Source: Phytoactinopolyspora halotolerans
Lineage (GTDB): Bacteria > Actinomycetota > Actinomycetes > Jiangellales > Jiangellaceae
Assembly (NCBI RefSeq): GCF_010550675.1
Contig: NZ_JAAGOA010000019.1
Location: 1 to 64,000, forward strand
Length of the DNA: 64,000 bases
Reading direction: 5' to 3'
The notes beneath the pieces were generated by a model that worked only from the letters and a program-made list of their open reading frames with translations, did not search any database and was not told where the DNA came from. A program made the position numbers and the translations under genes. Of this stretch, positions 3,495 through 59,144 are shown piece after piece. Position 1 is the stretch's first letter. Each line of letters opens with the position of its first letter.

Positions 3495-3538
3495 AGTCTC
3501 TCGCGGCGTGTTGGAGCGCGCGGCTGTCGCCCTCGGAA

Positions 3539-3580
3539 GAACGACATTCTGGTCGCGATCACGACCGCTATGCATGCTCG
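3539..3580. repeat. Intergenic palindrome element, copy A
   Basis: GAACGACA, 4 nt, GGTC, 8 nt, GACC, 4 nt, TGCATGCTCG. One of six copies in the window with identical spacing (others at 7154, 7673, 13285, 53921, 54098). It lies in the 213-bp gap between the hydrolase and the SNF2 helicase; nothing else is seen in that gap. Confidence 0.8.
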
Positions 3581-3707
3581 TTTCGGCGGTCACGTCTCCG
3601 TGCTGACGTGGGTGTCAGCAGCCACACTGACCTCATCTGTACCTGATTCCCGTGGCGTCGGCGGGTTGAACTAAGGCTGTCGGTGCCGGCCGCTAGCGTG
3701 CTGAGGC

Positions 3708-6700
3708 ATGCTCCTCGAAACCTTCAAGCAGCGCGATCCGACCGGTCTCGTCGACCATGTCGATGAGGCGTCGTACCTGCGCGGTGTGATCTATGCGCAC
3801 GAGGGCGCGGTGACGCGCATCTCGTGGGACCGAGCGGCCGGTACCCTGCTCGGTCAGGTTCGCGGCAGCGGGAGGAAGACCTACTCGGTGATTGCGCACC
3901 TGGACGAGGCAGTTGGCGGGGGCTACGAGTTCGGGTACGGCATGTGCAACTGTCCGGTGGGCTCGAACTGCAAGCACGTCGTCGCACTGGTGCTCACGGC
4001 TGCAGGGAACGGGAAGGGCGACCAGCTGGCCGTCGCCGAGGCGGCATCGCCCGAACCGACGTGGGAGCACTCCCTGGAAGCGATGCTCGACGGATCCGAT
4101 GGAGGCGACGCCGCCCGGGGCTTGACTCCGTTGGGGCTGGAGCTGACGCTGTCTACCTCGCCGTCTGCGGCGCGAGCACGTTCTGGAGCGGGACCCGTGG
4201 GTTGGCCGCTGATGGCCCGGCTGGTACGTCCCGGCAAGAACGGTGGCTGGGTCGCGGGAGGGCTGAACTGGTCGAAGTTGGGGCAGCTTCACTACTCGCG
4301 GGAGTATGTGGCGGAGCAGGCGCGGTTGCTGCAGGAGCTGTATGCGCTGTATCAGGCGGGTCGGAGCAACTCCTACTACGCGTACGGATACGGCCGGGAT
4401 GAGAAGCACATCGACCTGTCCAGGTTTGACTCCCGGCAGCTGTGGCCGATGCTGGATGAGGCCGAGTCGATCGGGCTGCGGATGGTTCACGGGAGGAGGA
4501 CGCTGGGGGAGGTGGAGTCGCCGGGGATGGCGCGGATGTGTGTCGACGTCACGGACGGTGACAGGTCCGGCATGCTGGCCGCTGAGCCGGTCCTGCGGAT
4601 CGACGGCGTCGACGCTGACGTCGTCCCGGTGAGCTTCATCGGGGTACAGGCCCACGGCGTCGTCTACACAGACCGGGCGGCCGTTGAGGCGGAAATGCCA
4701 ACCAGTGACTGGCGCTTGGGGCTGGCGAGACTCGGCAAGCCGATACCGCAGCAGCTACAGCAAATGGCGGTGGATGGCCAGCGCCTGGAGATTCCCGAGA
4801 CTGAGGCGCCGCGGTTCCGCGACGAGTACGTTCCGCGGCTGCGGCGGGTGGCCGCGGTCGAGTCGTCCGACGGATCGTTCACGCCGCCTGTCGTGTCCGG
4901 GCCGACGTTGGTCGCCCATGCCGCATACGACGACGAGCATGTGCTCGATCTGACGTGGGAGTGGCTCTATGAGGTCGGCGAACTCGAGAAGCGGGTCCCC
5001 GTAACCCCGGAGGGTGTTGCGGGCCTCGGGTTTCGGGACGTCGAAGCGGAGCAGACCGTGCTGCAGCGTATCGACGCTGGACTCGAGCCGTTGGGAATCG
5101 TGACGAGCAGTGGTATCCGCTCCGTAGCGGGCGCCTTCATCGCGGGTGCCGACGGCCCGTCGCTGGTACCGCACACGCGGCTCAGTGGCATGGACACGAT
5201 GCGGTTCACCACGGAGGTGCTGCCGCTGCTGGAAGACGCGGAGGACGTCGTCGTCGATATCAGCGGAGAGCCCGCTGACTATCGTGAGGCGACCGACTCG
5301 CTGACCGTGGGAGTGTCGACCGAAGCGGTGGCGGACAACGCCGACTGGTTCGACCTCGGCGTCACCATCTCGGTCGAGGGACGGGAGGTTCCGTTCGTCA
5401 ACGTGTTCACCGCGCTCGCACGGGATGAACAGCACATGTTGCTGCCAGACGGCGCTTTCTTCTCGCTGCAGAAGCCGGAGCTGCAGGCGCTGCGCAGGTT
5501 GATCGAGGAAGCGCGGGCACTCGGCGAGGGCTTGAACGGGCAGACGAGGATCAGCCGGTTCCAGGCGGGGCTGTGGGAGGAGCTGGCGGCGCTCGGCGTC
5601 GTGACCCATCAGGCCGAGGCGTGGCAGCAGCAGGTTGAAGGGCTGTTGTCGATCGATGCGGTAGAGCAGGCCGAACCGCCTGCTTCCCTGGTTGCGGAGT
5701 TGCGCCCCTACCAGCTGGACGGCTTCCGATGGCTGGCGTTCCTCTGGGAGCACCGGCTGGGCGGGATCCTCGCCGACGACATGGGCCTGGGCAAGACGCT
5801 GCAGACGCTGGCGCTGATCTGTCATGCCAAGGTGGCCGACCCTGAATGCGGCCCCTTTCTGGTCGTGGCGCCGACGAGCGTCGTGTCGAACTGGGTTGCC
5901 GAGGCGGCACGCTTCGCGCCTGGCCTGCGCGTCGTTCCTGTGACCGACACTCTGCGCAGGCGAGGGGAGTCGATCGAGGAGGTGACGGCCGGCGCGGACG
6001 TGGTGGTGACCACGTACACATTGCTGCGGCTGGACTCCGACGACTATGGGCAGGTCTCGTGGGCGGGCGTCGTGCTGGATGAGGCCCAGTACGTGAAGAA
6101 CCACCAGTCCAAGACGTATCAGGCCGTGCGGCAGCTTCCATCGCCGTTCAAGCTGGCCATCACCGGCACCCCGATGGAGAACAACCTGATGGAGCTGTGG
6201 TCGCAGCTTTCGATCACCGCGCCCGGCATGTTCCCCAGCCCCACGAAGTTCGACGAGTACTACGCCCGTCGGATCGAAAAGCAGGGTGACGCCGGACTGC
6301 TTGCGCAGCTGCGACGGCGCATCAGGCCGCTGGTGAAGCGTCGCACGAAGGAGCAGGTGGCCACGGACCTGCCGGCCAAGCAGGAGCAGGTGATCGAGGT
6401 TGAGCTGCATCCGCAGCATCGCAAGCTGTACCAGAAGTACCTGCAGCGCGAGCGGCAGAAGGTGCTGGGGCTGCTCGACGACGTGAACAAGAACCGGTTC
6501 ACCATCCTGCGTTCGTTGACGTTGCTGCGGCAGCTCAGCCTGCATGCCGGGCTGGTCGACGAGGCGCACGGTGGCTATCCGTGCGCGAAGATCGATGTGC
6601 TGATGCAGCAGCTGGGCGAGGTCGTCGATGGGGGACATAGGGCGCTGGTGTTCAGCCAGTTCACCGGGTTCCTCAGCATCGCGCGGGAGCGCCTGGAGGC

Positions 6701-7085
6701 GTCCGGCATCGAGTACTGCTACCTGGACGGCTCCACCCGCAACCGGGAAGAGGTGATCGCCCGGTTCAAGGAAGGACGAGCACCGGTGTTCCTGATCAGC
6801 CTGAAGGCGGGCGGGTTCGGGCTGAACCTCACCGAGGCGGACTACTGCTTCCTGCTCGATCCGTGGTGGAACCCGGCGACCGAGGCGCAGGCCGTGGACC
6901 GCACCCATCGCATCGGGCAGACGCGCAACGTCATGGTGTACCGCCTGATCGCCGCTGACACCATCGAAGAGAAGGTCATGGCCCTCAAGGCACGCAAGGC
7001 GAAACTGTTCACCAGTGTGATGGACGACGGCAACGCCTTCGGCTCCAGCCTCGACGTCGACGACATCCGCGGCCTGTTCGAGTAG
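3708..7085 (+). CDS. SWIM zinc-finger SNF2-family DNA helicase/translocase
   Basis: A 1125-residue protein. Residues about 80-98 carry a SWIM zinc finger (MCNCPVGSNCKHVVAL, CxC...CxH). The middle is a bacterial SNF2-associated region, followed by a SNF2 ATPase: ILADDMGLGKTLQTLAL (Walker A, about residue 685), VVLDEAQYVKN (DEAQ box), ITGTPMENNLMELWSQL, and the second RecA lobe with SQFTGFLSIARERLE, GSTRNREEVIARFKEG, LISLKAGGFGLNLTEAD and AVDRTHRIGQTRNVMVYRL. Such proteins are dsDNA-dependent ATPases that move on DNA or remodel protein-DNA complexes. The gene stands alone with about 880 bp before the restriction-modification cassette. SNF2 proteins occur in some defence systems, but many actinomycetes carry this type as housekeeping. 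Confidence 0.95.
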   Translation: MLLETFKQRDPTGLVDHVDEASYLRGVIYAHEGAVTRISWDRAAGTLLGQVRGSGRKTYSVIAHLDEAVGGGYEFGYGMCNCPVGSNCKHVVALVLTAAGNGKGDQLAVAEAASPEPTWEHSLEAMLDGSDGGDAARGLTPLGLELTLSTSPSAARARSGAGPVGWPLMARLVRPGKNGGWVAGGLNWSKLGQLHYSREYVAEQARLLQELYALYQAGRSNSYYAYGYGRDEKHIDLSRFDSRQLWPMLDEAESIGLRMVHGRRTLGEVESPGMARMCVDVTDGDRSGMLAAEPVLRIDGVDADVVPVSFIGVQAHGVVYTDRAAVEAEMPTSDWRLGLARLGKPIPQQLQQMAVDGQRLEIPETEAPRFRDEYVPRLRRVAAVESSDGSFTPPVVSGPTLVAHAAYDDEHVLDLTWEWLYEVGELEKRVPVTPEGVAGLGFRDVEAEQTVLQRIDAGLEPLGIVTSSGIRSVAGAFIAGADGPSLVPHTRLSGMDTMRFTTEVLPLLEDAEDVVVDISGEPADYREATDSLTVGVSTEAVADNADWFDLGVTISVEGREVPFVNVFTALARDEQHMLLPDGAFFSLQKPELQALRRLIEEARALGEGLNGQTRISRFQAGLWEELAALGVVTHQAEAWQQQVEGLLSIDAVEQAEPPASLVAELRPYQLDGFRWLAFLWEHRLGGILADDMGLGKTLQTLALICHAKVADPECGPFLVVAPTSVVSNWVAEAARFAPGLRVVPVTDTLRRRGESIEEVTAGADVVVTTYTLLRLDSDDYGQVSWAGVVLDEAQYVKNHQSKTYQAVRQLPSPFKLAITGTPMENNLMELWSQLSITAPGMFPSPTKFDEYYARRIEKQGDAGLLAQLRRRIRPLVKRRTKEQVATDLPAKQEQVIEVELHPQHRKLYQKYLQRERQKVLGLLDDVNKNRFTILRSLTLLRQLSLHAGLVDEAHGGYPCAKIDVLMQQLGEVVDGGHRALVFSQFTGFLSIARERLEASGIEYCYLDGSTRNREEVIARFKEGRAPVFLISLKAGGFGLNLTEADYCFLLDPWWNPATEAQAVDRTHRIGQTRNVMVYRLIAADTIEEKVMALKARKAKLFTSVMDDGNAFGSSLDVDDIRGLFE

Positions 7086-7153
7086 CCGGCTACCGTCGGC
7101 GGATGTACGGCCTACTCGCGCGGTCGGCTACAGACACGGGCGGCCAACGAAGC

Positions 7154-7197
7154 GAATGACATTTCGGTCACCATCGCGACCACAACGCATGTCCTTC
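7154..7197. repeat. Intergenic palindrome element, copy B
   Basis: GAATGACA, 4 nt, GGTC, 8 nt, GACC, 4 nt, then CGCATGTCCTTC. Same spacing as copies A, C, D, E and F, with a diverged right arm. Confidence 0.7.
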
Positions 7198-7672
7198 TCG
7201 GCGCATAGGGGGTGCACCGTATCGCGCGGCGCGTCCTGGGGGAGCGTATCGAGTGGTTCGTTGAGGACAGTCCGCCGGCGATCGTGTCGCTGCGTGATGT
7301 CCGTGAGCCGGGGGCATCGAGTCCCGCAGTAGACCAGGTTGTCGAGCAGATCGCCCGCCACGGCGAGGCTACAGTGAGCCATGGCGGTCTGCGGCTCGAG
7401 CCGCCTGACCCGTTCGAGACCCTACTTCAGCGAAGGAAGCTGAGGAGGCTGCGGCTGCTGTCTGGGCATTGCTGGCTGTTGACGATGTCCAGCCGCTTGT
7501 TGACTTGTCTCGACGCGTAGCCGCGTGCGGTCTGCTCGCGTTCACCTTCGACATGGGTGAAAACGCCGCTGATGGCGCATCGATCCGGATGTAGTGATCT
7601 TGGTCTTCCCCTCGGACCCTCGAGTCAGATCTTCCCGGCGTTCGGTTGACCCGCGCCGTCGGCCACCGGAGG

Positions 7673-7714
7673 GAACGACATCGTGGCGGCGATCGCGACC
7701 GAAATGCATGCTCG
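7673..7714. repeat. Intergenic palindrome element, copy C
   Basis: GAACGACA, 4 nt, GGCG (GGTC elsewhere), 8 nt, GACC, 4 nt, TGCATGCTCG. Its outer arms are identical to those of copy A. Confidence 0.75.
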
Positions 7715-7860
7715 AGGAGTTGAAGCCGTGCCGTCGTTGGCATGACGCCGGGAATGGGCGCCACCAGCCGGACCTTAGGCTGATGCGGTAGCGTGCCCAC
7801 CCGCCACTGCGCCACCCATCTGGGACACCTCCTGACGCGTGGCCGGTTCGGTTGTAGGCT

Positions 7861-7878
7861 AATTACACGTATGTGATT
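7861..7878. promoter_or_regulatory. Candidate operator/promoter palindrome upstream of the methyltransferase
   Basis: AATTACA-CGTA-TGTGATT, an inverted repeat with one mismatch per arm, lies 88 bp upstream of the cytosine methyltransferase start in locally AT-rich sequence. Restriction-modification genes are often controlled by upstream operators or autoregulated by the methylase; no separate controller gene is present here. Confidence 0.3.
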
Positions 7879-7965
7879 CTCGACGAGCATCCAGGTGGGG
7901 CCAGCGCAGCGCCCCGCACGAGGGTCGACTACTGTTCTACCCTGACCCGGTGAGAGGAGCTGATC

Positions 7966-8970
7966 TTGACAGAGGAGCTAGCTGCGGCCAACGAGCCATT
8001 GAGAATCATCTCGCTGTTCACCGGAGCCGGCGGTCTTGATCTCGGATTTGAAGCAGCAGGCTGTCATACCATCGCGGCAGTCGACAACGATCCCGAGTCC
8101 TGCAGGACACTACGCCACAATCGTCCTGACTGGAACGTATTCGAAGGCGACGTTCGCGAGTATAGCCCGGTGCTGCGGGATGTTGATCTTGTAATCGGAG
8201 GGCCACCATGTCAGGGATTCTCTTCGGCCGGGAAGGGAGACCCGAATGACCCAAGGAATTTCCTCTGGAAAGAGTATTTCAGAATCGTCAAGGCGGTGCG
8301 TCCGCGAGGGTTGGTTCTCGAGAACGTTTCTGCCCTTACTCACCGCAAGAATGGCGATCATTTAACCGGCATAATCAGCGCCCTTGAAGAGGCCGGTTAC
8401 CACTTCGCCATGGATGTTCTAAATGCGGCCGACTATGGCGTTCCGCAGAATCGACGTCGTCTCATCGTAATAGGCCTGCGCGACGGAAACCCCGGCCTTC
8501 CCGTCCCGACGACTGCCGATCGCCCCAGGACAGTCCGCGAAGCAATTGAAGACATTGATAACAAGTTTGATGAGTCCTGGAATCACGTACCACCGAAGCA
8601 CGCGGAGCACGTCGCTGAGCGCTGGGCGAAACTCAAGGCCGGCGAGGTGGATCCCAATTATCGCCGGGCACGGCTAGATTACGACAAGCCTAGCGTTACG
8701 ATAAGAGCGGGCGGGGGGTACGGACCGAGGGGCGATCACCTTGCTGGCTTCCACCCACCGATTCATCCCACTAGACCGCGTCAGTTGACTGTCCGCGAGG
8801 CTGCTCGAATCCAGTCCTTTCCAGATGACTGGATTCTGAAAGGCAGTAAGACGGCTCAGGGTCGCCAGATCGGAAATGCCGTGCCCGTTCTGTTGGCAGA
8901 GGCCATTGCCAAGCATGTAGTAGACTTCCTCCGCAGTAGGGACGCCGATGCGTCGGTGCGGTCGGCGTAA
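7966..8970 (+). CDS. DNA (cytosine-5) methyltransferase of a NotI-type R-M system
   Basis: A 334-residue C5 methyltransferase that methylates a cytosine using S-adenosylmethionine. Conserved motifs in order: I (ISLFTGAGGLDLGFEAAG), IV with the catalytic Cys (GGPPCQGFSSAG, about residue 84), VI (GLVLENV), VIII (QNRRRLIVIG), a short target-recognition region, IX (LTVREAARIQSFPDDW) and X (GRQIGNAVP). The TTG start at 7966 was chosen for its strong site GAGAGGAGC. A/T-ending codons (ATA, TTA, AAT) contrast with the neighbours and point to horizontal transfer. It precedes the endonuclease by 18 bp and should protect the host's own sites. Target sequence not readable from the protein. Confidence 0.95.
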   Translation: MTEELAAANEPLRIISLFTGAGGLDLGFEAAGCHTIAAVDNDPESCRTLRHNRPDWNVFEGDVREYSPVLRDVDLVIGGPPCQGFSSAGKGDPNDPRNFLWKEYFRIVKAVRPRGLVLENVSALTHRKNGDHLTGIISALEEAGYHFAMDVLNAADYGVPQNRRRLIVIGLRDGNPGLPVPTTADRPRTVREAIEDIDNKFDESWNHVPPKHAEHVAERWAKLKAGEVDPNYRRARLDYDKPSVTIRAGGGYGPRGDHLAGFHPPIHPTRPRQLTVREAARIQSFPDDWILKGSKTAQGRQIGNAVPVLLAEAIAKHVVDFLRSRDADASVRSA

Positions 8971-8988
8971 GGGAGGAAGCCTCTCGTC

Positions 8989-9972
8989 GTGGGCGCGCTC
9001 GAGGAATTATTCGACTGTCGCACGCTCGTTGGTGCGGTCCCCATCAAAGGAGCCGGGTTGAGCACTACAATTTTCGAATTCTATGGATATCAATCGACCG
9101 ATCAATCTCCAATAGCGCTTGAACATGCGCGAGATGGGCGTTGCCCATTCATCCTCGATACTTGCGAGAAGACGCTACGCAATGGCGAAACGTCTGGTGT
9201 CTGTAGCCTTAAGCCCGCGACCTCCGGCCCCGTCATCTGTTGTCCTATTCGCCTCTATGCCGACAATTATCGAATCCTTAAGGATGTTTGTAAGCTGGCT
9301 TTCGGTCAGCACCTTCCGCTAGTGCCGGGCGCCGCAGCGGTTTACAAGGCAAAACGGGGCGGCTCTTCCGTCGTGTCCGTGTTCGGTAAGCGCTGGGGAG
9401 GTGAACTGCGCTTGCCTCAGCGCCAAGGGCGTGGCTCATACTTTGTCGACTGGATTCTTGCGCGACTCGAACCAGACGGTAGCCTCGCCGAATTCGTCGC
9501 GGTGGAAGTGCAATCAATTGACACAACTGGCAATTATCAGGATTCACGCCGGCATCTACTGGAATCGGGCAGAAGAGTCGCCAAGGCAACGGCTGGCTTC
9601 AATTGGGAGAACGTGAGTAAGCGGATACTTCCACAGATCATATACAAAGGGAACGTTCTGCAGCGCGAGGAGCTGTGCCAAAAGGGGCTTTTCTTCGTTA
9701 CGCCTTCTCCTGTTTACGCTAAGGTAATGCAGCGGCTCGGTGGCGCGGACGGATTGTTGCCGTATCCTCTCCAGTCAAGCAGTATAACCTTTATGGCGTA
9801 CGACATCGACTACAATAATGCTCAACCCGGAAAACCACTGCAGTTAGAGCAGAGCGATGTTTTCACGACGAATATCGGTCAGGTCGCGCAAGCGTTCGCT
9901 GGCCCCGGAGTTATGCCGCCTAAGGACTGCTATCGCGAAGCGATCAAGCAAGCGCTCGGGGCTGTAGCCTAG
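8989..9972 (+). CDS. NotI-family type II restriction endonuclease
   Basis: A 327-residue protein with two hallmarks of the NotI family. The first is an N-terminal cluster of cysteines for metal/iron binding (CPFILDTC, then GVCS, then CCP, residues about 48-88). The second is a PD-(D/E)XK-type core in which VDWILARL supplies the Asp and FVAVEVQSID the E-x-Q pair (about residues 160-185). Characterised relatives (NotI, EagI) cut GC-only palindromes such as GCGGCCGC; specificity here is inference. GTG start. The gene is AT-richer than its surroundings (for example 23 G/C of 60 in 9061-9120). It lies between the methyltransferase and vsr, forming an M-R-Vsr cassette. Confidence 0.85.
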   Translation: MGALEELFDCRTLVGAVPIKGAGLSTTIFEFYGYQSTDQSPIALEHARDGRCPFILDTCEKTLRNGETSGVCSLKPATSGPVICCPIRLYADNYRILKDVCKLAFGQHLPLVPGAAAVYKAKRGGSSVVSVFGKRWGGELRLPQRQGRGSYFVDWILARLEPDGSLAEFVAVEVQSIDTTGNYQDSRRHLLESGRRVAKATAGFNWENVSKRILPQIIYKGNVLQREELCQKGLFFVTPSPVYAKVMQRLGGADGLLPYPLQSSSITFMAYDIDYNNAQPGKPLQLEQSDVFTTNIGQVAQAFAGPGVMPPKDCYREAIKQALGAVA

Positions 9973-9976
9973 AGTC

Positions 9977-10393
9977 ATGGAAGTTAAGTCGTGGGCGTCG
10001 AGCAGGGCCACCCGGAAGAGCATGCTAGCGAACCGAAGTCGCGACACAGGGCCTGAGCTTGCTCTGCGTTCGATTCTTCATGGACGCGGTTATCGTTATC
10101 GAGTTAACTATCGACCGTTGCGAGACAAGCGAAACAGTGCTGATATCGTCTTCACGAAGGCGAAGGTTGCAGTGTTCGTCGATGGCTGTTACTGGCATGG
10201 CTGCCCCGAGCACTATTGGCCAGCGAAGACGAATGTTCACTACTGGGCCCCAAAGATAGCAGCCAACAAGGAGCGTGACGAGCTCTTCAATGAGGCGCTC
10301 GCCGAACGTGGTTGGACTGTAGTAAGAGCCTGGGAGCACGAGGCACCGGAGGATGTAGCTGAGCGTGTCGCACTGGCCTTGCGTCGCTTATAA
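9977..10393 (+). CDS. vsr: Very short patch repair (Vsr) endonuclease
   Basis: A 138-residue Vsr enzyme, which nicks 5' of the T in T:G mismatches left when 5-methylcytosine deaminates at methylase target sites. Family motifs: RSRDTGPELALRSILHGRGYRYR, LRDKRNSADIVFTKAKVAVFVDG (containing the catalytic Asp), CYWHGCPEHYWPAKTN (zinc/His region) and the helix KERDELFNEALAERGW. It begins 4 bp after the endonuclease gene, so all three genes are one transcriptional unit. Its presence supports the call that the partner methylase is a C5 enzyme. Confidence 0.95.
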   Translation: MEVKSWASSRATRKSMLANRSRDTGPELALRSILHGRGYRYRVNYRPLRDKRNSADIVFTKAKVAVFVDGCYWHGCPEHYWPAKTNVHYWAPKIAANKERDELFNEALAERGWTVVRAWEHEAPEDVAERVALALRRL

Positions 10394-11209
10394 ACGCTCG
10401 GTGGCCTGACTCGCACCGGCGGCATTTTGCTAAGTCTACTGCGTCATTCTGAACGAGCGTTCGTCTCGAACAGATCGTGAGAGAACCCCTGGACTGGACC
10501 GATCATGCTGGTGGCCGACTGCGATCGCGGCCTGGCCCGTCATCGTGTCTCCGGCCAGTAGTCCGCACCCAGTTCCTCCACGTCGCCTGCGTTATCGCCG
10601 GTGCCGGCACGGGAAAGACGCGGGCCATCACGCACCGGATCGGTGTGCAGGTTGGGCTGTCCTCCACTTCGTGGACCGCCGGCCACGGCGCGTCGCGCTC
10701 GAAGCGCTGTCCGGCGTCGCTGGCGCTGTCGAGAGTCAGGTCGAATAGCATCGGTTCATGCCAGCGTTCGACCGCGTGTGCATCAAGTGCCGGGCTGGTC
10801 GAACTTGAAGGGGGAGCGCGAAGTCGCGCGACCACGTCGTACGCACGCGATGCGGCGCGGACACGACGGCACTGCGGCCGGGTGCGGCGGTGACGGTCTC
10901 GTCGTTCACGGTGACGCGCACTCCCGGGCAGCGTCGCGAGCACCGCGTACACGCCGATCTGATCGAGCTCGGTGGAGACCTGGACACGGAACATGAGCAC
11001 GGCCGTACTCATCTAGCCCAGGGGGCGCCATGGATGTCTAAGTCGACCGTGGTGGACAGATCTGCGCTCGATGTGTTGAGGGCGCTAGATGACCACGGCC
11101 TCGCGGGGGCGACCTTGAACCGTGTCCTCCCGCAACACGCTTAGCCTCTCCGGTTGGGAAGCCCCGGGTCGCAATGTGCCGCAGGCACGCGGCGTAGCGG
11201 TGTCGCGGC
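10394..11209. other. 816-bp stretch of gene debris right of the R-M cassette
   Basis: No intact gene was recognised. A uvrD-like fragment lies at 10585-10650 on the plus strand. On the minus strand about 10640-11000, protein-like segments occur in shifted frames: one contains VERWHEPMLFDLTLDSA, others give FRVQVSTELDQIGVYAVLA and VRVTVNDETVTAAPG. They look like pieces of one or two broken genes. Together with the debris on the left side this marks the cassette as an insertion hotspot. Confidence 0.45.
10585..10650 (+). pseudogene. UvrD/PcrA-type helicase fragment (Walker A region)
   Basis: The frame reads VACVIAGAGTGKTRAITHRI, matching the Walker A region of UvrD-family helicases (A-G-A-G-T-G-K-T-R-A-I-T-x-R-I). 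Neither the upstream Q motif nor any later helicase motif follows, and the continuation loses similarity within about ten residues. It is a short remnant, not a gene. Confidence 0.6.
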
Positions 11210-13250: not shown

Positions 13251-13284
13251 TCGGTTGGAGATCAAGTGCCATCAGGAGTGCAGG

Positions 13285-13326
13285 CGGCGACATCGTGCCC
13301 ACGATGGTGACCGTGATGCATGCTCC
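13285..13326. repeat. Intergenic palindrome element, copy D
   Basis: CGGCGACA, 4 nt, GCCC, 8 nt, GACC, 4 nt, TGCATGCTCC. It is the most diverged copy on the left side but keeps the exact spacing and right arm of copies A and C. It sits between the Rrf2 gene and the first AraC gene. Confidence 0.6.
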
Positions 13327-13485
13327 TTGCCCGCCGATCTGCGCCCGCTACCAGCCACAACACGACACTCACCACGGTTGGCGGCGGCTTGTGAGGGTTG
13401 TAAGTGAACGTAACATTTTTCCGCAGGGTGTTTGCACAGCGTGAGGATGTCGCTACGCTCTGTAATTCAGGCCGTCACTCCGAGG

Positions 13486-53920: not shown

Positions 53921-53960
53921 GAACGACATAGTGGTTGTTCTGACGACCAGATTGTCGTTC
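53921..53960. repeat. Intergenic palindrome element, copy E (symmetric form)
   Basis: GAACGACA, 4 nt, GGTT, 8 nt, GACC, 4 nt, TGTCGTTC. Outer arms are perfect reverse complements. Same spacing as copies A-D and F. Confidence 0.85.
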
Positions 53961-54016
53961 CTTCGAGCGCGCGTTCCGCCCGATCGTGATCTTCCGGGCC
54001 GGGACTCGGCATCCGG

Positions 54017-54086
54017 TCACACGGCAGACCGCACGGTCGGTTCTGAGACCGCTCTTTCTCACACGGCAGACCGCACGGTCGGTTCT
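54017..54086. repeat. 28-bp direct repeat pair
   Basis: 54017-54044 and 54059-54086 are identical (TCACACGGCAGACC... to GGTTCT), period 42 bp. Each contains the small palindrome GACCG-CA-CGGTC. Lies between palindrome copies E and F. Confidence 0.9.
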
Positions 54087-54097
54087 CAGCGTGTAAC

Positions 54098-54137
54098 GAA
54101 CGACAAAGCGGTCATCCCGGCGACCACAATGTCGTTC
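54098..54137. repeat. Intergenic palindrome element, copy F (symmetric form)
   Basis: GAACGACA, 4 nt, GGTC, 8 nt, GACC, 4 nt, TGTCGTTC. Perfect outer and inner stems separated by a symmetric 4/4 internal loop. Confidence 0.9.
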
Positions 54138-56377: not shown

Positions 56378-56757
56378 CCATGAGCGCTGAGCGGGCACTG
56401 ACCACGCCTGAAGCGGCCCGGCCAGGCACGCGCCGGACGCTACGCGTGCTGCCGGGCGTCGCGCGGACACCGCGGGCGCCATTTGTCGTTCTGATCCTGC
56501 TGGTGCTCGGCATCGGCCTGGTGGGGCTCCTGCTGCTGAACACGGCGCTGCAGCAAGGCTCGTTCGAGCTGGCCCGGCTGGAGGCGGAGACCACGGCCCT
56601 GCGGGACCGCGCGGAGATTCTGGCCAGCCAGGTCGCCGAGAAGGAGTCGCCGGCCGGACTCGCCGAGCGCGCCGAGGAACTGGGCATGGTACCGGCCGAA
56701 GATCTGGAGATCCTGGAGATCACCACGCCCCCGCCGGCCAACGGCGGTGACGAGTGA
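56374..56757 (+). CDS. ftsL: Cell division protein FtsL-like
   Basis: 127 residues with one TM segment ([20 protein letters not shown], about 37-56) and a following coiled coil ([40 protein letters not shown]). Topology, size and location between rsmH and ftsI identify it as FtsL, which with FtsB/FtsQ links the division ring to FtsW/FtsI. Sequence similarity in this family is low; position carries most of the assignment. Overlaps both neighbours by 4 bp. Confidence 0.88.
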
Positions 56758-59144
56758 GAGAGCCGGACCCGCGCCGCTCCGGGCGTCGAGGGACCGGTGA
56801 CCCGGGTGGCGGCGGCCGTTCTGGCCGTACCGCCGCGGGACAGCGGAGCGGTGGAAAGAACAACGGGCGCGGTGCCGACGCATCGGGGGGCAGGCGTTCG
56901 GCCGGTCCGGCGGCCGGCCAGGGTCGCAACGGCGGAAACGGCGGGAAGTCCGCGAACGGCGGGAGAGCCGCGAACGGCGGGAAGTCCGCGAACGGCGGGA
57001 GAGCCGCGAACGGCGGGAAGTCCGCGAACCGCGGGAAAACCACGAACGCCGCGAACGCGGGGAAGACCGGACGCGGATCGGCCTCCGGCAGCACAGGCGG
57101 CCGCGGCCGTGGCGGCGTGGCGCGCAACGCCGGCACGTCGGCCACACCGCAGCCGAAGCAACGGCCCGGATCGGATGCCGGCAAGTCGTCGTCGATCAAG
57201 CGCGCGGTCCGCACGACCCGTCCCACCTCCGCACGCACCCGCGCGTCGGCGACGCGCCAGCCGTCTGAGCGTGCGTCCGGCACGCCGGCACGTCCGCGCA
57301 AGCCGGCGAGCGCGCGCCTGACCAAGCCCGCAGCCGCCAGGCCCAAGCAGGCCCGGCCGGAACAGGCCAAGCCGAAAACGGCCAGGCAACGCCACAAGAC
57401 GCCGCGGCTGTTCCGGATGGCCGATTCGCGCAAGCGGCTCAGAGTGCTGCTCGCCGGCCTGTGCGTGCTGATGTCGCTGTTCGCCGGCCGGCTGGTCCAG
57501 CTGCAAGGGCTGGACGCATCCACGTACATGCTGACGGCCAGCCAGATCGGCCGGAAGATGGTGCCGCTGCCGGCGGAACGCGGTGACATCGTCGACCGCA
57601 ACGGTGAGCCGCTGGCGCGAGCCGTCGAGGCCTACAACGTCTTCGTCGATCAGACCCAGGTGACGAACCCGGCCGCGTACGCGCTCCAGCTGGAGACGGT
57701 GCTGGATCAGGACGCGGAAGCGTTGCAGGAACGGCTCACCGGCGAGGATCGGTTCGTCTACGTCGCCAAGGACGTCGGAGGGTCGACCTGGCGCGAGATC
57801 CAGGACATGGGCCTGTCCGGCCTCGACGCCGAGAACGCCGACGCGCGTGCCTACCCGGCGGGCCCGGTGGCGGGGAACGTGGTCGGCTTCCTCAGCTCCG
57901 ACGGGACCCCGTTGGGTGGCCTGGAGCTCTCCCAGGAGAACACGCTGGCCGGGCAGGACGGCCGGATCGCGTACCGGGAGAGTCCCAGCGGCGAGCGCAT
58001 CCCGACCGACGCGATGGCGCGCGAGGAGCCCGTGCCGGGCGAGAGCCTGGAGCTGACGATCGATCGGGACCTGCAGTGGTACGCGGAGGAGGTGCTGGCC
58101 GAGGCGGTGGACAACGCGAACGCCGACGGAGGCACGGCGGTGGTCCTGGAGCTCACCGGCGAGGCGAACGAGATCGCCGCGATCGCCAGCGCCCCATCGC
58201 TGGATCCGAACCACCCGGAGAAGACCGACGGGCCGGACCGCGGGAGCCGAGCCGTGGAGGAGGCCTACGAGCCGGGCTCGGTGTTCAAGCCGCTGACCAT
58301 GGCCGCGATCCTCGAGGAGGGCGTGGCCGACGCGTCCACCACGCTGCCGGTCGCCGACAACATCCGGCGCAGCGGGCACACCATCCGGGACCACTACGGC
58401 CACCCGGAACAGGAGATGACGCTGGCCGGCATCCTCGCCAAGTCCAGCAACGTCGGCACGCTGCAGGTCGCGGAGGAGCTCGACGGCGAGACGTTCCGCG
58501 GGTACCTGGAGCGGTTCGGCATCGGCGAGGCCACCGGGATCGGCCTGCCGTCGGAGACGTCCGGGCGCCTGCCGTCGCTGGATGAATGGTCCCAGCTGAC
58601 CCAGGACAACATCTCGTTCGGTCAAGGGGTCTCGGTGAACACCGTCCAGATGGCCTCGGCATACGCGACCATCGCCAACGGCGGTGTGCGGATCGATCCG
58701 ACGCTCGTCTCGGCGACGGTCTCCGCCGACGGCGAACGGACGCCGACCGATCCGCGCGAACCCGACCGCGTGGTGAGCGAGGAGACGGCGGCCGAGGTGA
58801 CCGCGATGATGGAAGCCGTCATGGGCGAGGGCGGAACCGGTCAGAAGGTCGCGCTGGACGGTTACCGCGTGGCCGGCAAGACCGGAACCGCGCAGCGTGT
58901 GGATCCGGAATGCGGCTGCTATTCGCAGTACAACGCGTCATTCATGGGATTCGCACCGGCGGACGATCCGCAGTACGTTGTCGCGGTGTCGCTGATGAAC
59001 CCGCGCAACGGGAACTCGGGTAGTGGGCTGGCGGGTCCGGCGTTCGCGGATATCCTGCAGTTCGCCTTGGAGCGGGACGGCGTGGCGCCGTCGGAGGAGC
59101 CGGCGCCGGAGCTTCCGCTCTTCGCCGACGGCGTGGAGGAGTGA
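56754..59144 (+). CDS. ftsI: Septal penicillin-binding protein (FtsI/PBP2b class B)
   Basis: 796 residues from GTG 56754. The first 225 residues are cytoplasmic, basic and Gly/Asn/Ser-rich with a hexapeptide repeat (residues 63-98), much longer than usual; then one TM (LLAGLCVLMSLFAGRLVQLQ), the PBP dimerisation domain (PAERGDIVDRNGEPLARAVE) and a transpeptidase domain with SxxK in EPGSVFKPLTMAAI, SxN in AKSSNVGTLQVAE and KTG in RVAGKTGTAQRVD. It cross-links septal peptidoglycan. No C-terminal PASTA domains. Confidence 0.96.
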   Translation: MREPDPRRSGRRGTGDPGGGGRSGRTAAGQRSGGKNNGRGADASGGRRSAGPAAGQGRNGGNGGKSANGGRAANGGKSANGGRAANGGKSANRGKTTNAANAGKTGRGSASGSTGGRGRGGVARNAGTSATPQPKQRPGSDAGKSSSIKRAVRTTRPTSARTRASATRQPSERASGTPARPRKPASARLTKPAAARPKQARPEQAKPKTARQRHKTPRLFRMADSRKRLRVLLAGLCVLMSLFAGRLVQLQGLDASTYMLTASQIGRKMVPLPAERGDIVDRNGEPLARAVEAYNVFVDQTQVTNPAAYALQLETVLDQDAEALQERLTGEDRFVYVAKDVGGSTWREIQDMGLSGLDAENADARAYPAGPVAGNVVGFLSSDGTPLGGLELSQENTLAGQDGRIAYRESPSGERIPTDAMAREEPVPGESLELTIDRDLQWYAEEVLAEAVDNANADGGTAVVLELTGEANEIAAIASAPSLDPNHPEKTDGPDRGSRAVEEAYEPGSVFKPLTMAAILEEGVADASTTLPVADNIRRSGHTIRDHYGHPEQEMTLAGILAKSSNVGTLQVAEELDGETFRGYLERFGIGEATGIGLPSETSGRLPSLDEWSQLTQDNISFGQGVSVNTVQMASAYATIANGGVRIDPTLVSATVSADGERTPTDPREPDRVVSEETAAEVTAMMEAVMGEGGTGQKVALDGYRVAGKTGTAQRVDPECGCYSQYNASFMGFAPADDPQYVVAVSLMNPRNGNSGSGLAGPAFADILQFALERDGVAPSEEPAPELPLFADGVEE
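56940..57047. repeat. 18-nt minisatellite inside ftsI
   Basis: Six 18-nt units (for example GGCGGGAAGTCCGCGAAC) encode alternating GGKSAN and GGRAAN hexapeptides in the cytoplasmic tail. Unit number is likely to vary between strains. Confidence 0.9.

Follow-up and report, generated by a model that had tools for sequence, protein, structure and literature searches.

The window, by which we mean the whole 64,000-nucleotide stretch of Phytoactinopolyspora halotolerans DNA that was analyzed, contains six copies of a short inverted repeat. The genus belongs to the family Jiangellaceae. The repeat is an element of about 46 bp, in which two inverted half-sites are arranged around a fixed center. There are two types of half-site, X and Y, and we found them in three pairings: the full palindromes X-X' and Y-Y', and the hybrid X-Y'. 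The elements of the window and their neighboring genes are as follows.

3537..3582, + strand: hybrid X-Y', the first of a one-way cluster, 44 bp past the stop codon of an alpha/beta hydrolase gene
3708..7085, + strand: SNF2 helicase of 1125 aa, a near full-length match to the DpdE model
7152..7197, + strand: hybrid X-Y', 68 bp past the helicase gene
7671..7716, + strand: hybrid X-Y'
7966..8970, + strand: C5-cytosine methyltransferase of a type II restriction system, inside the cluster
8989..9972, + strand: NotI-like type II restriction endonuclease
9977..10393, + strand: Vsr-type nicking endonuclease
13283..13328, + strand: hybrid X-Y', the weakest, with a degenerate left arm, between an Rrf2-type gene (- strand) and an AraC-type gene (+ strand)
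53921..53960, no strand assigned: full palindrome X-X', in a gap of about 1.1 kb upstream of a gene that we take to be mraZ
54098..54137, no strand assigned: second full palindrome X-X', in the same gap of about 1.1 kb

The DpdE-like helicase is the sole gene called between two hybrids of the window. The methyltransferase, NotI-like endonuclease, and Vsr genes come beyond the third hybrid, in G+C-poor DNA (0.55 to 0.58 at 8 to 10 kb versus 0.62 to 0.70 in the adjoining kilobases). These restriction genes, at 7966 to 10393, were missed by our crude gene caller. Together with the helicase, they likely make the region from 3708 to 10893 a defense island. By the same crude gene calls, all six elements lie between genes, as the initial annotation of this DNA had said. 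Rfam gave no match in the window at gathering scores. Two further repeats were seen. A 31-nt direct repeat, 97% identical and 42 apart (54017-54047 and 54059-54089), lies between the two X-X' palindromes, and a tandem 18-nt repeat (AACGGCGGGAAGTCCGCG-like) occupies 56901-57064, a stretch flanked by the called genes 56446-56757 and 57417-59144.

The initial annotation had described the copies at 3539, 7154, 7673, 13285, 53921, and 54098 as palindromes of one fixed geometry. All six are present, and GACC occupies one slot in every copy. The left core is GGTC at 3539, 7154, and 54098, but GGCG at 7673, GCCC at 13285, and GGTT at 53921. The spacing is indeed shared, but the set mixes two palindromes with four hybrids. 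The X-X' consensus is GAACGACAT-n3-GGTC-n8-GACC-n3-ATGTCGTTC. The right arm is ATGTCGTTC at 53921 and 54098 and ATGCATGCTCnTT-like, either ATGCATGCTCnTT itself or a near version, at the other four sites, which have an X half in common on the left (degenerate at 13285). X is conserved out to 20 bp from the center and has one more T at 23; the conservation of Y reaches 23 to 24 bp. The two share their inner part and have a similar outer motif that is displaced by 5 bp. Conservation in 31 hybrid copies spans -2 to +44, with sharp edges on both sides and near-random flanks. The central dinucleotide is AT in 38 of 59 hybrids, 3 of 17 X-X', and 5 of 13 Y-Y' elements. The hybrids of contig C14 (6790-10959) of the window's genome, and other hybrids, show an arm (ATGCATTTC- or ATGTATTTC-like) that is intermediate between X and Y. 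At C14 this arm scores nearly alike as X and as Y, and it may be a third half-site type.

The spacing was said to be stricter than the sequence, and this was borne out. In the fetched loci of two genomes, GACAT-n3-GGTC-n8-GACC was fitted by 50 distinct strings and each other spacer from 2 to 15 by none or one, a count that is partly circular because most of the fetched loci were picked with the n8 pattern. The frequencies are also far above those of controls. GGTC-n8-GACC occurs 13 times in the 64-kb window versus 3.57 expected, a number that none of 100 shuffles reached, and a longer gapped pattern with up to three mismatches occurs 12 times versus 1.41 expected. Across the whole genome of the window (G000, 7.3 Mb), the gapped pattern with up to two mismatches gave 58 forward and 43 reverse matches versus 7 and 2 for a reversed-pattern control; full palindromes enter these counts on both strands. 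The spacing was retained in two congeners with a diverged version. The earlier proposal of a dispersed family with rigid spacing is supported, and the family has dozens of mostly intergenic copies.

We found at least 67 copies in the fetched parts of G000 (44 X-Y', 12 X-X', 10 Y-Y', and 1 unassigned) and 26 in the fetched loci of Phytoactinopolyspora endophytica EGI 60009 (G002). A half-site scan, which gave no hits in 1 Mb of random sequence, identified 43 hybrids, 12 X-X', and 4 Y-Y' in the fetched loci of G000 and 16 hybrids and 5 X-X' in those of G002. Among the matches listed, loci from a profile search added to G000 one hybrid, six Y-Y' (including a near-tie at C23:437229 that was entered as Y-Y'), and one copy without a class (C34:333237). 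They added one hybrid, one X-X', and three Y-Y' to G002, again among the matches listed. Y-Y' is under-sampled, because fetching started from an X-type pattern. The G002 copy at C5:144423, which has masked bases, was excluded from the alignments, from the dinucleotide, spacer, and offset counts, and from the arm-agreement test.

With one mismatch allowed, a relaxed pattern for the full palindrome matched 14 places in G000, 8 in G002, and 7 and 9 in two further congeners, G001 and G003. The same pattern had no match in the congener G004 and at most two in every other genome of the 393 sampled from the class. In G001 and G003 the element takes a variant form, TWCCGACATYGYGGTGG..CCACC.., in which the spacing is identical and core and outer bases are altered on both sides (9 of the 16 full-palindrome places were aligned). 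Three patterns had no matches in viral contigs, and single 48-base queries, X-X' against plasmids and Y-Y' against phages, matched nothing. One hybrid pattern matched four stretches in a set of genome contigs from which near relatives of the window may be absent, all of them in P. endophytica. A literature search found no description of this repeat family.

Some other repeats came up in these comparisons. The orthologous gaps in loci L351 (about 880-980, contig C17 of G002) and L339 (contig C1 of G001) hold, by eye, other and unrelated long inverted repeats, so that several intergenic palindrome families may exist in Phytoactinopolyspora. A stretch of about 30 bases between an MFS and an HxlR gene (locus L032, 5514-5548) has about 10 matches in G004, mostly at 91 to 100%, and is possibly another dispersed repeat. 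Directly to the right of one element (locus L127, 5766-5928), up to 160 bases match all four congeners at 68 to 84% over various parts.

We then consider folding, since a hairpin common to all six copies had been suggested. The two X-X' palindromes of the window fold as RNA with -21.0 and -18.4 kcal/mol (z of -5.2 and -4.7) and as DNA with z of -4.0 and -3.0. Another X-X' had z of -8.4 (RNA) and -8.5 (DNA), and one Y-Y' had -7.0 (RNA) and -5.1 (DNA). All four full palindromes tested therefore fold better than shuffles (RNA z of -4.7 to -8.4; DNA z of -3.0 to -8.5). In contrast, none of five hybrids, four from the window and one from contig C20, folded clearly better than shuffles (z of -0.9 to 0.7 for RNA and -1.5 to 1.3 for DNA). 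The suggestion of a common hairpin fails on the four window hybrids, which fold no better than most shuffles either as RNA or as DNA. The hybrids keep both arms, yet those tested do not fold; therefore, folding cannot be what maintains them. Separate recognition of X and Y can account for their upkeep.

Compensatory changes, the proposed check on folding, gave a divided result. At degenerate positions the arms of 17 X-X' elements agree at 0.79 versus 0.63 by chance, and in a cross-species alignment changes on both sides occur in 61 cells versus 28.7 in shuffles, part of which reflects the split between species pairs. The arms of 13 Y-Y' elements show no excess agreement (0.54 versus 0.56), though changes on both sides were 18 versus 11.0 in shuffles, a weak signal. 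The excess agreement in 59 hybrids is slight (0.66 versus 0.61, P of 0.006), and in their inner part changes on both sides were 35 versus 25.6 in shuffles. The arm agreement of X-X' goes beyond what protein binding needs, and template-switch repair could be its source.

The hybrids occur in clusters. G000 has four in the window, seven at C20 (54-70 kb), seven at C33, and three at C14; G002 has four at C5, three at C32, and two at C14. Among copies of the half-site scan, adjacent hybrids less than 12 kb apart point in the same direction in 23 of 23 pairs, or in 21 of 21 when C14, where the arms are a near-tie between X and Y, is left aside. A copy found later at C8 gives one more same-direction pair. 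Hybrids 15 to 101 kb apart follow no such rule: three pairs point the same way (two at C19 and one at C20) and three point in opposite directions (C15, C4, and C45). Orientation is unlikely to be set by replication direction, because both orientations occur within the single contigs C15, C4, and C45. Local duplication is a weak explanation for the one-way clusters. Identity within clusters of G000 exceeds that between clusters by only 0.026, which 96 of 2000 permutations reach. A local duplicate does exist at C33 (8368/11448), as does a tandem 127-bp unit at C32 of G002. The central dinucleotide is uniform in some clusters (AT throughout C20 and in the window's four), reads CC, CC, TC, CC at C5 of G002, and is mixed at C33 and C14. 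The genes between clustered hybrids point both ways and are accessory content. Those of the C20 cluster encode an MFS pump with an HxlR regulator, an alkaline phosphatase, MerR, YnfA, an AbiEi-like protein, HigB with an HTH partner, a GNAT protein (below the cut-off), and TetR with a dehydrogenase.

The 5-bp displacement between the half-sites offers a comparison with serine integrases. Counted outward from the center, X' reads TCGTTC at 15 to 20 and Y' reads TCnTT at 20 to 24, so that the Ts stand at 18 to 19 in X and at 23 to 24 in Y. When column frequencies are compared, no shift of the outer X motif against Y between -6 and 10 scores above 0.41 except a shift of 5, which scores 0.84. Only 1.7% of column permutations equal this score at their own best shift, in a comparison of just six columns. 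For the Listeria integrase, the part of Rutherford et al. 2013 (PMC3783163) used here places the zinc-ribbon motif 5 bp closer to the center in attB than in attP, with Ts preferred at 17 to 19 of attB and contacted at 22 to 24 of attP. A serine-integrase-like reader is favored because the half lengths and the T positions match those of attB and attP. We regard the offset as one quantitative resemblance rather than proof.

We suggest, tentatively and at somewhat less than even confidence, that the elements are attachment-type sites of a site-specific recombinase, most likely with a large-serine-integrase-like reader. In this scenario, X-X' would act like attB and Y-Y' like attP, and X-Y' would be the attL- or attR-like hybrid that remains after exchange. 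An AT center is self-complementary, which would make attL and attR a single site that can be read from either side. Two inverted hybrids could then lose the DNA between them by excision, and two direct hybrids could only undergo inversion. Hybrids that lie close together would end up pointing one way and those far apart would follow no rule, as observed, and the cluster genes would be passengers. The excision and inversion step would not cover hybrids with other centers, such as those at C5 of G002, which likewise point one way.

The recombinase itself was not found and has perhaps been lost. The only PF00239 match in G000, in an open frame of 157 codons at C63, spans 61 of the 145 profile positions. 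This serine recombinase fragment is the only one in G000, and the sites there may therefore be relics. No cognate large serine recombinase lay beside a site: G000 has the fragment only, and no site was near those checked in G001, G002, and G003. Recombinases without PF00239 were sought via PF00589. No element occurred within 1.5 kb of recombinase domains at 37 loci in five genomes, or in 11 larger recombinase loci (about 220 kb, four genomes), as searched with the G000/G002 version of the element profile and, for the larger loci, also with one general pattern. These surroundings include those of the G000 tyrosine recombinases at C21 and C17, checked to 1.5 kb. No shared tyrosine recombinase specific to G000 and G002 stood out, in a comparison in which several were read in the wrong frame. 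The tyrosine recombinases at C64 of G000 and C4 of G002 are 85% alike over 102 aa, and the repeat-free G004 has relatives at 48 to 62%.

Comparisons between genomes gave mixed signs of mobility. A gene of 414 aa, presumably the last in a phosphonate-type operon of G002 on a reading by eye, is 93% identical over 1347 bases between G002 and C24 of G000, and the match stops within about 2 bases of the right edge of an element. Its left end lies just upstream of the gene, without an element. At C14, on a reading of the alignment, two elements of G000 enclose a gene of 661 aa; in the corresponding place of G002, roughly 190 bases separate a clear element from a decayed one. Two blocks of the C20 cluster (L032 12232-12978 and 13203-14290), each a single gene, are 88 to 92% identical to different loci of G002 and G003. 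Their ends fall no more than about 190 bp from gene edges rather than at elements, and the blocks suggest recent gene-by-gene exchange within the genus. The blocks flanking the element at C20:53711 keep their direction in G002, and no inversion is seen there. We count the rigid spacer, the sharp ends, the 5-bp offset, the upkeep of both arms in hybrids, the one-way pairs, and the edge of the 93% block in favor of recombination sites. Against them stand the lack of a recombinase beside the sites, the ends of the L032 blocks, the unchanged direction at C20:53711, the near-perfect X-X' palindromes and the agreement of their arms, and the fact that the offset rests on six columns.

The main rival is a REP-like or MITE-like family, in which some transposase copies palindromic units into intergenic DNA, with two arm alleles and a lineage-specific spread. 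We consider this possible but, on balance, rather unlikely. The distribution fits it. Of 78 copies from the half-site scan, 4 extend more than 10 bp into a called gene; 26 of the 78 lie between convergent genes, compared with 72 of 448 gaps. The part of PMC3733652 used here likewise places REPs chiefly in gaps between genes that are convergent or unidirectional, and it includes CGTC-tagged REPs that have no transposase dedicated to them. In the fetched loci, no copy position is common to G001/G003 and G000/G002, or to G001 and G003, and G001 and G003 have a different allele, with none seen in G004. One gene has a copy within 2 kb in both G003 and G002, but on opposite sides. However, at least four positions are common to G000 and G002, and others look common (C14:10917 and the copies that surround the AbiEi-like C20 gene). 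In six alignments, which covered five sites, neither a clean empty site nor a target duplication was seen; the relative without the element had gaps that could not be aligned, and the mraZ gap gave no readable empty site against relatives. The tested hybrids do not fold, and one-way clusters without close kinship are not expected from random insertion. Y1_Tnp (PF01797) matched none of the five Phytoactinopolyspora genomes and 5 of 14 control genomes, a result on which a RAYT-type REP fails. Of the REP-like family first proposed, the dispersed, intergenic, and apparently undescribed character stands, but not a RAYT-type origin.

Sites of a chromosomal protein, either a regulator or a nucleoid protein that accepts two half-site types, are improbable. 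Such a protein could explain the fixed spacing, the separate conservation of each hybrid arm, the symmetrical change of core and outer bases between species, and the positions common to G000 and G002. It does not lead one to expect enrichment between convergent genes, patchy presence inside one genus, clusters that adjoin accessory genes, or one-way orientation. The paired-site operator proposed earlier thus accounts for the half-sites but leaves the one-way clusters unexplained. Bidirectional transcription terminators spread by recombination are more improbable still. X-X' and Y-Y' form hairpins, and the X-X' at C7:25323 and C12:451905 lie just 9 to 28 bp from both convergent gene ends. However, none of the five tested hybrids, the commonest form found, folds, 15 of 78 copies in the half-site scan lie between divergent genes, and the conserved block has no T-run. 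The attC sites of a classical integron, as clusters without an integrase, would explain why differing sites are arrayed in one direction next to small, unrelated genes (23 of 23 pairs under 12 kb), but are largely refuted by anatomy and very improbable, because the conserved block of about 46 bp has no R-box by eye when compared with the attC consensus and none of the five hybrids folds clearly better than shuffles as single-stranded DNA.

If the elements are recombination sites, a bolder reading can be stated, which we consider unlikely but worth setting out: an actinobacterial counterpart of the integron, in which one-way arrays of accessory and defense genes are split by serine-integrase-type hybrids, inverted neighbors are excised, and direct ones survive. 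As part of this joint and equally doubtful claim, the polarity of the arrays would follow from the chemistry of attL and attR with a self-complementary center. A survey of complete genomes (PMC9024848), in the part used here, reports no complete integrons in Actinobacteria. If true, this reading would provide a second, unrelated route to one-way arrays of exchangeable defense and accessory genes, would help explain how islands grow in Actinobacteria, and would point to a new recombinase whose natural sites number in the dozens in each genome. A modest reading still gives a countable, genus-restricted repeat family with separable hybrid and symmetric forms.

Three known systems resemble these elements in part. 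REP and REPIN sequences are also short, mostly intergenic palindromes that are lineage-restricted and enriched between convergent genes. Unlike them, the elements described here have no Y1 transposase (five genomes), no GTAG tag, and two interchangeable arms, and their clusters do not alternate in orientation. An integron attC site is expected to form a single-stranded hairpin that has R and L boxes and extrahelical bases. In integron cassette arrays and CALIN, as in our clusters, varied sites of a single orientation adjoin accessory, toxin-antitoxin, and defense genes, but the site here is short and without attC boxes, the tested hybrids do not fold, the genes face both ways, some with regulators, and no IntI was seen in the clusters. 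From large serine integrase sites, our elements differ in their tens of copies, in the near-perfect symmetry of some X-X' and Y-Y', in their one-way clusters, and in that no integrase was found nearby; a natural attB site does not, as a rule, take the form of a near-perfect palindrome repeated many times. Like the elements described here, however, large serine integrase sites have half-sites that are inverted about a central dinucleotide and come in a shorter and a longer type, and they form hybrids. Their outer (zinc-ribbon) motif lies 5 bp farther out in the attP type, which would correspond to Y, than in the attB type, which would correspond to X.
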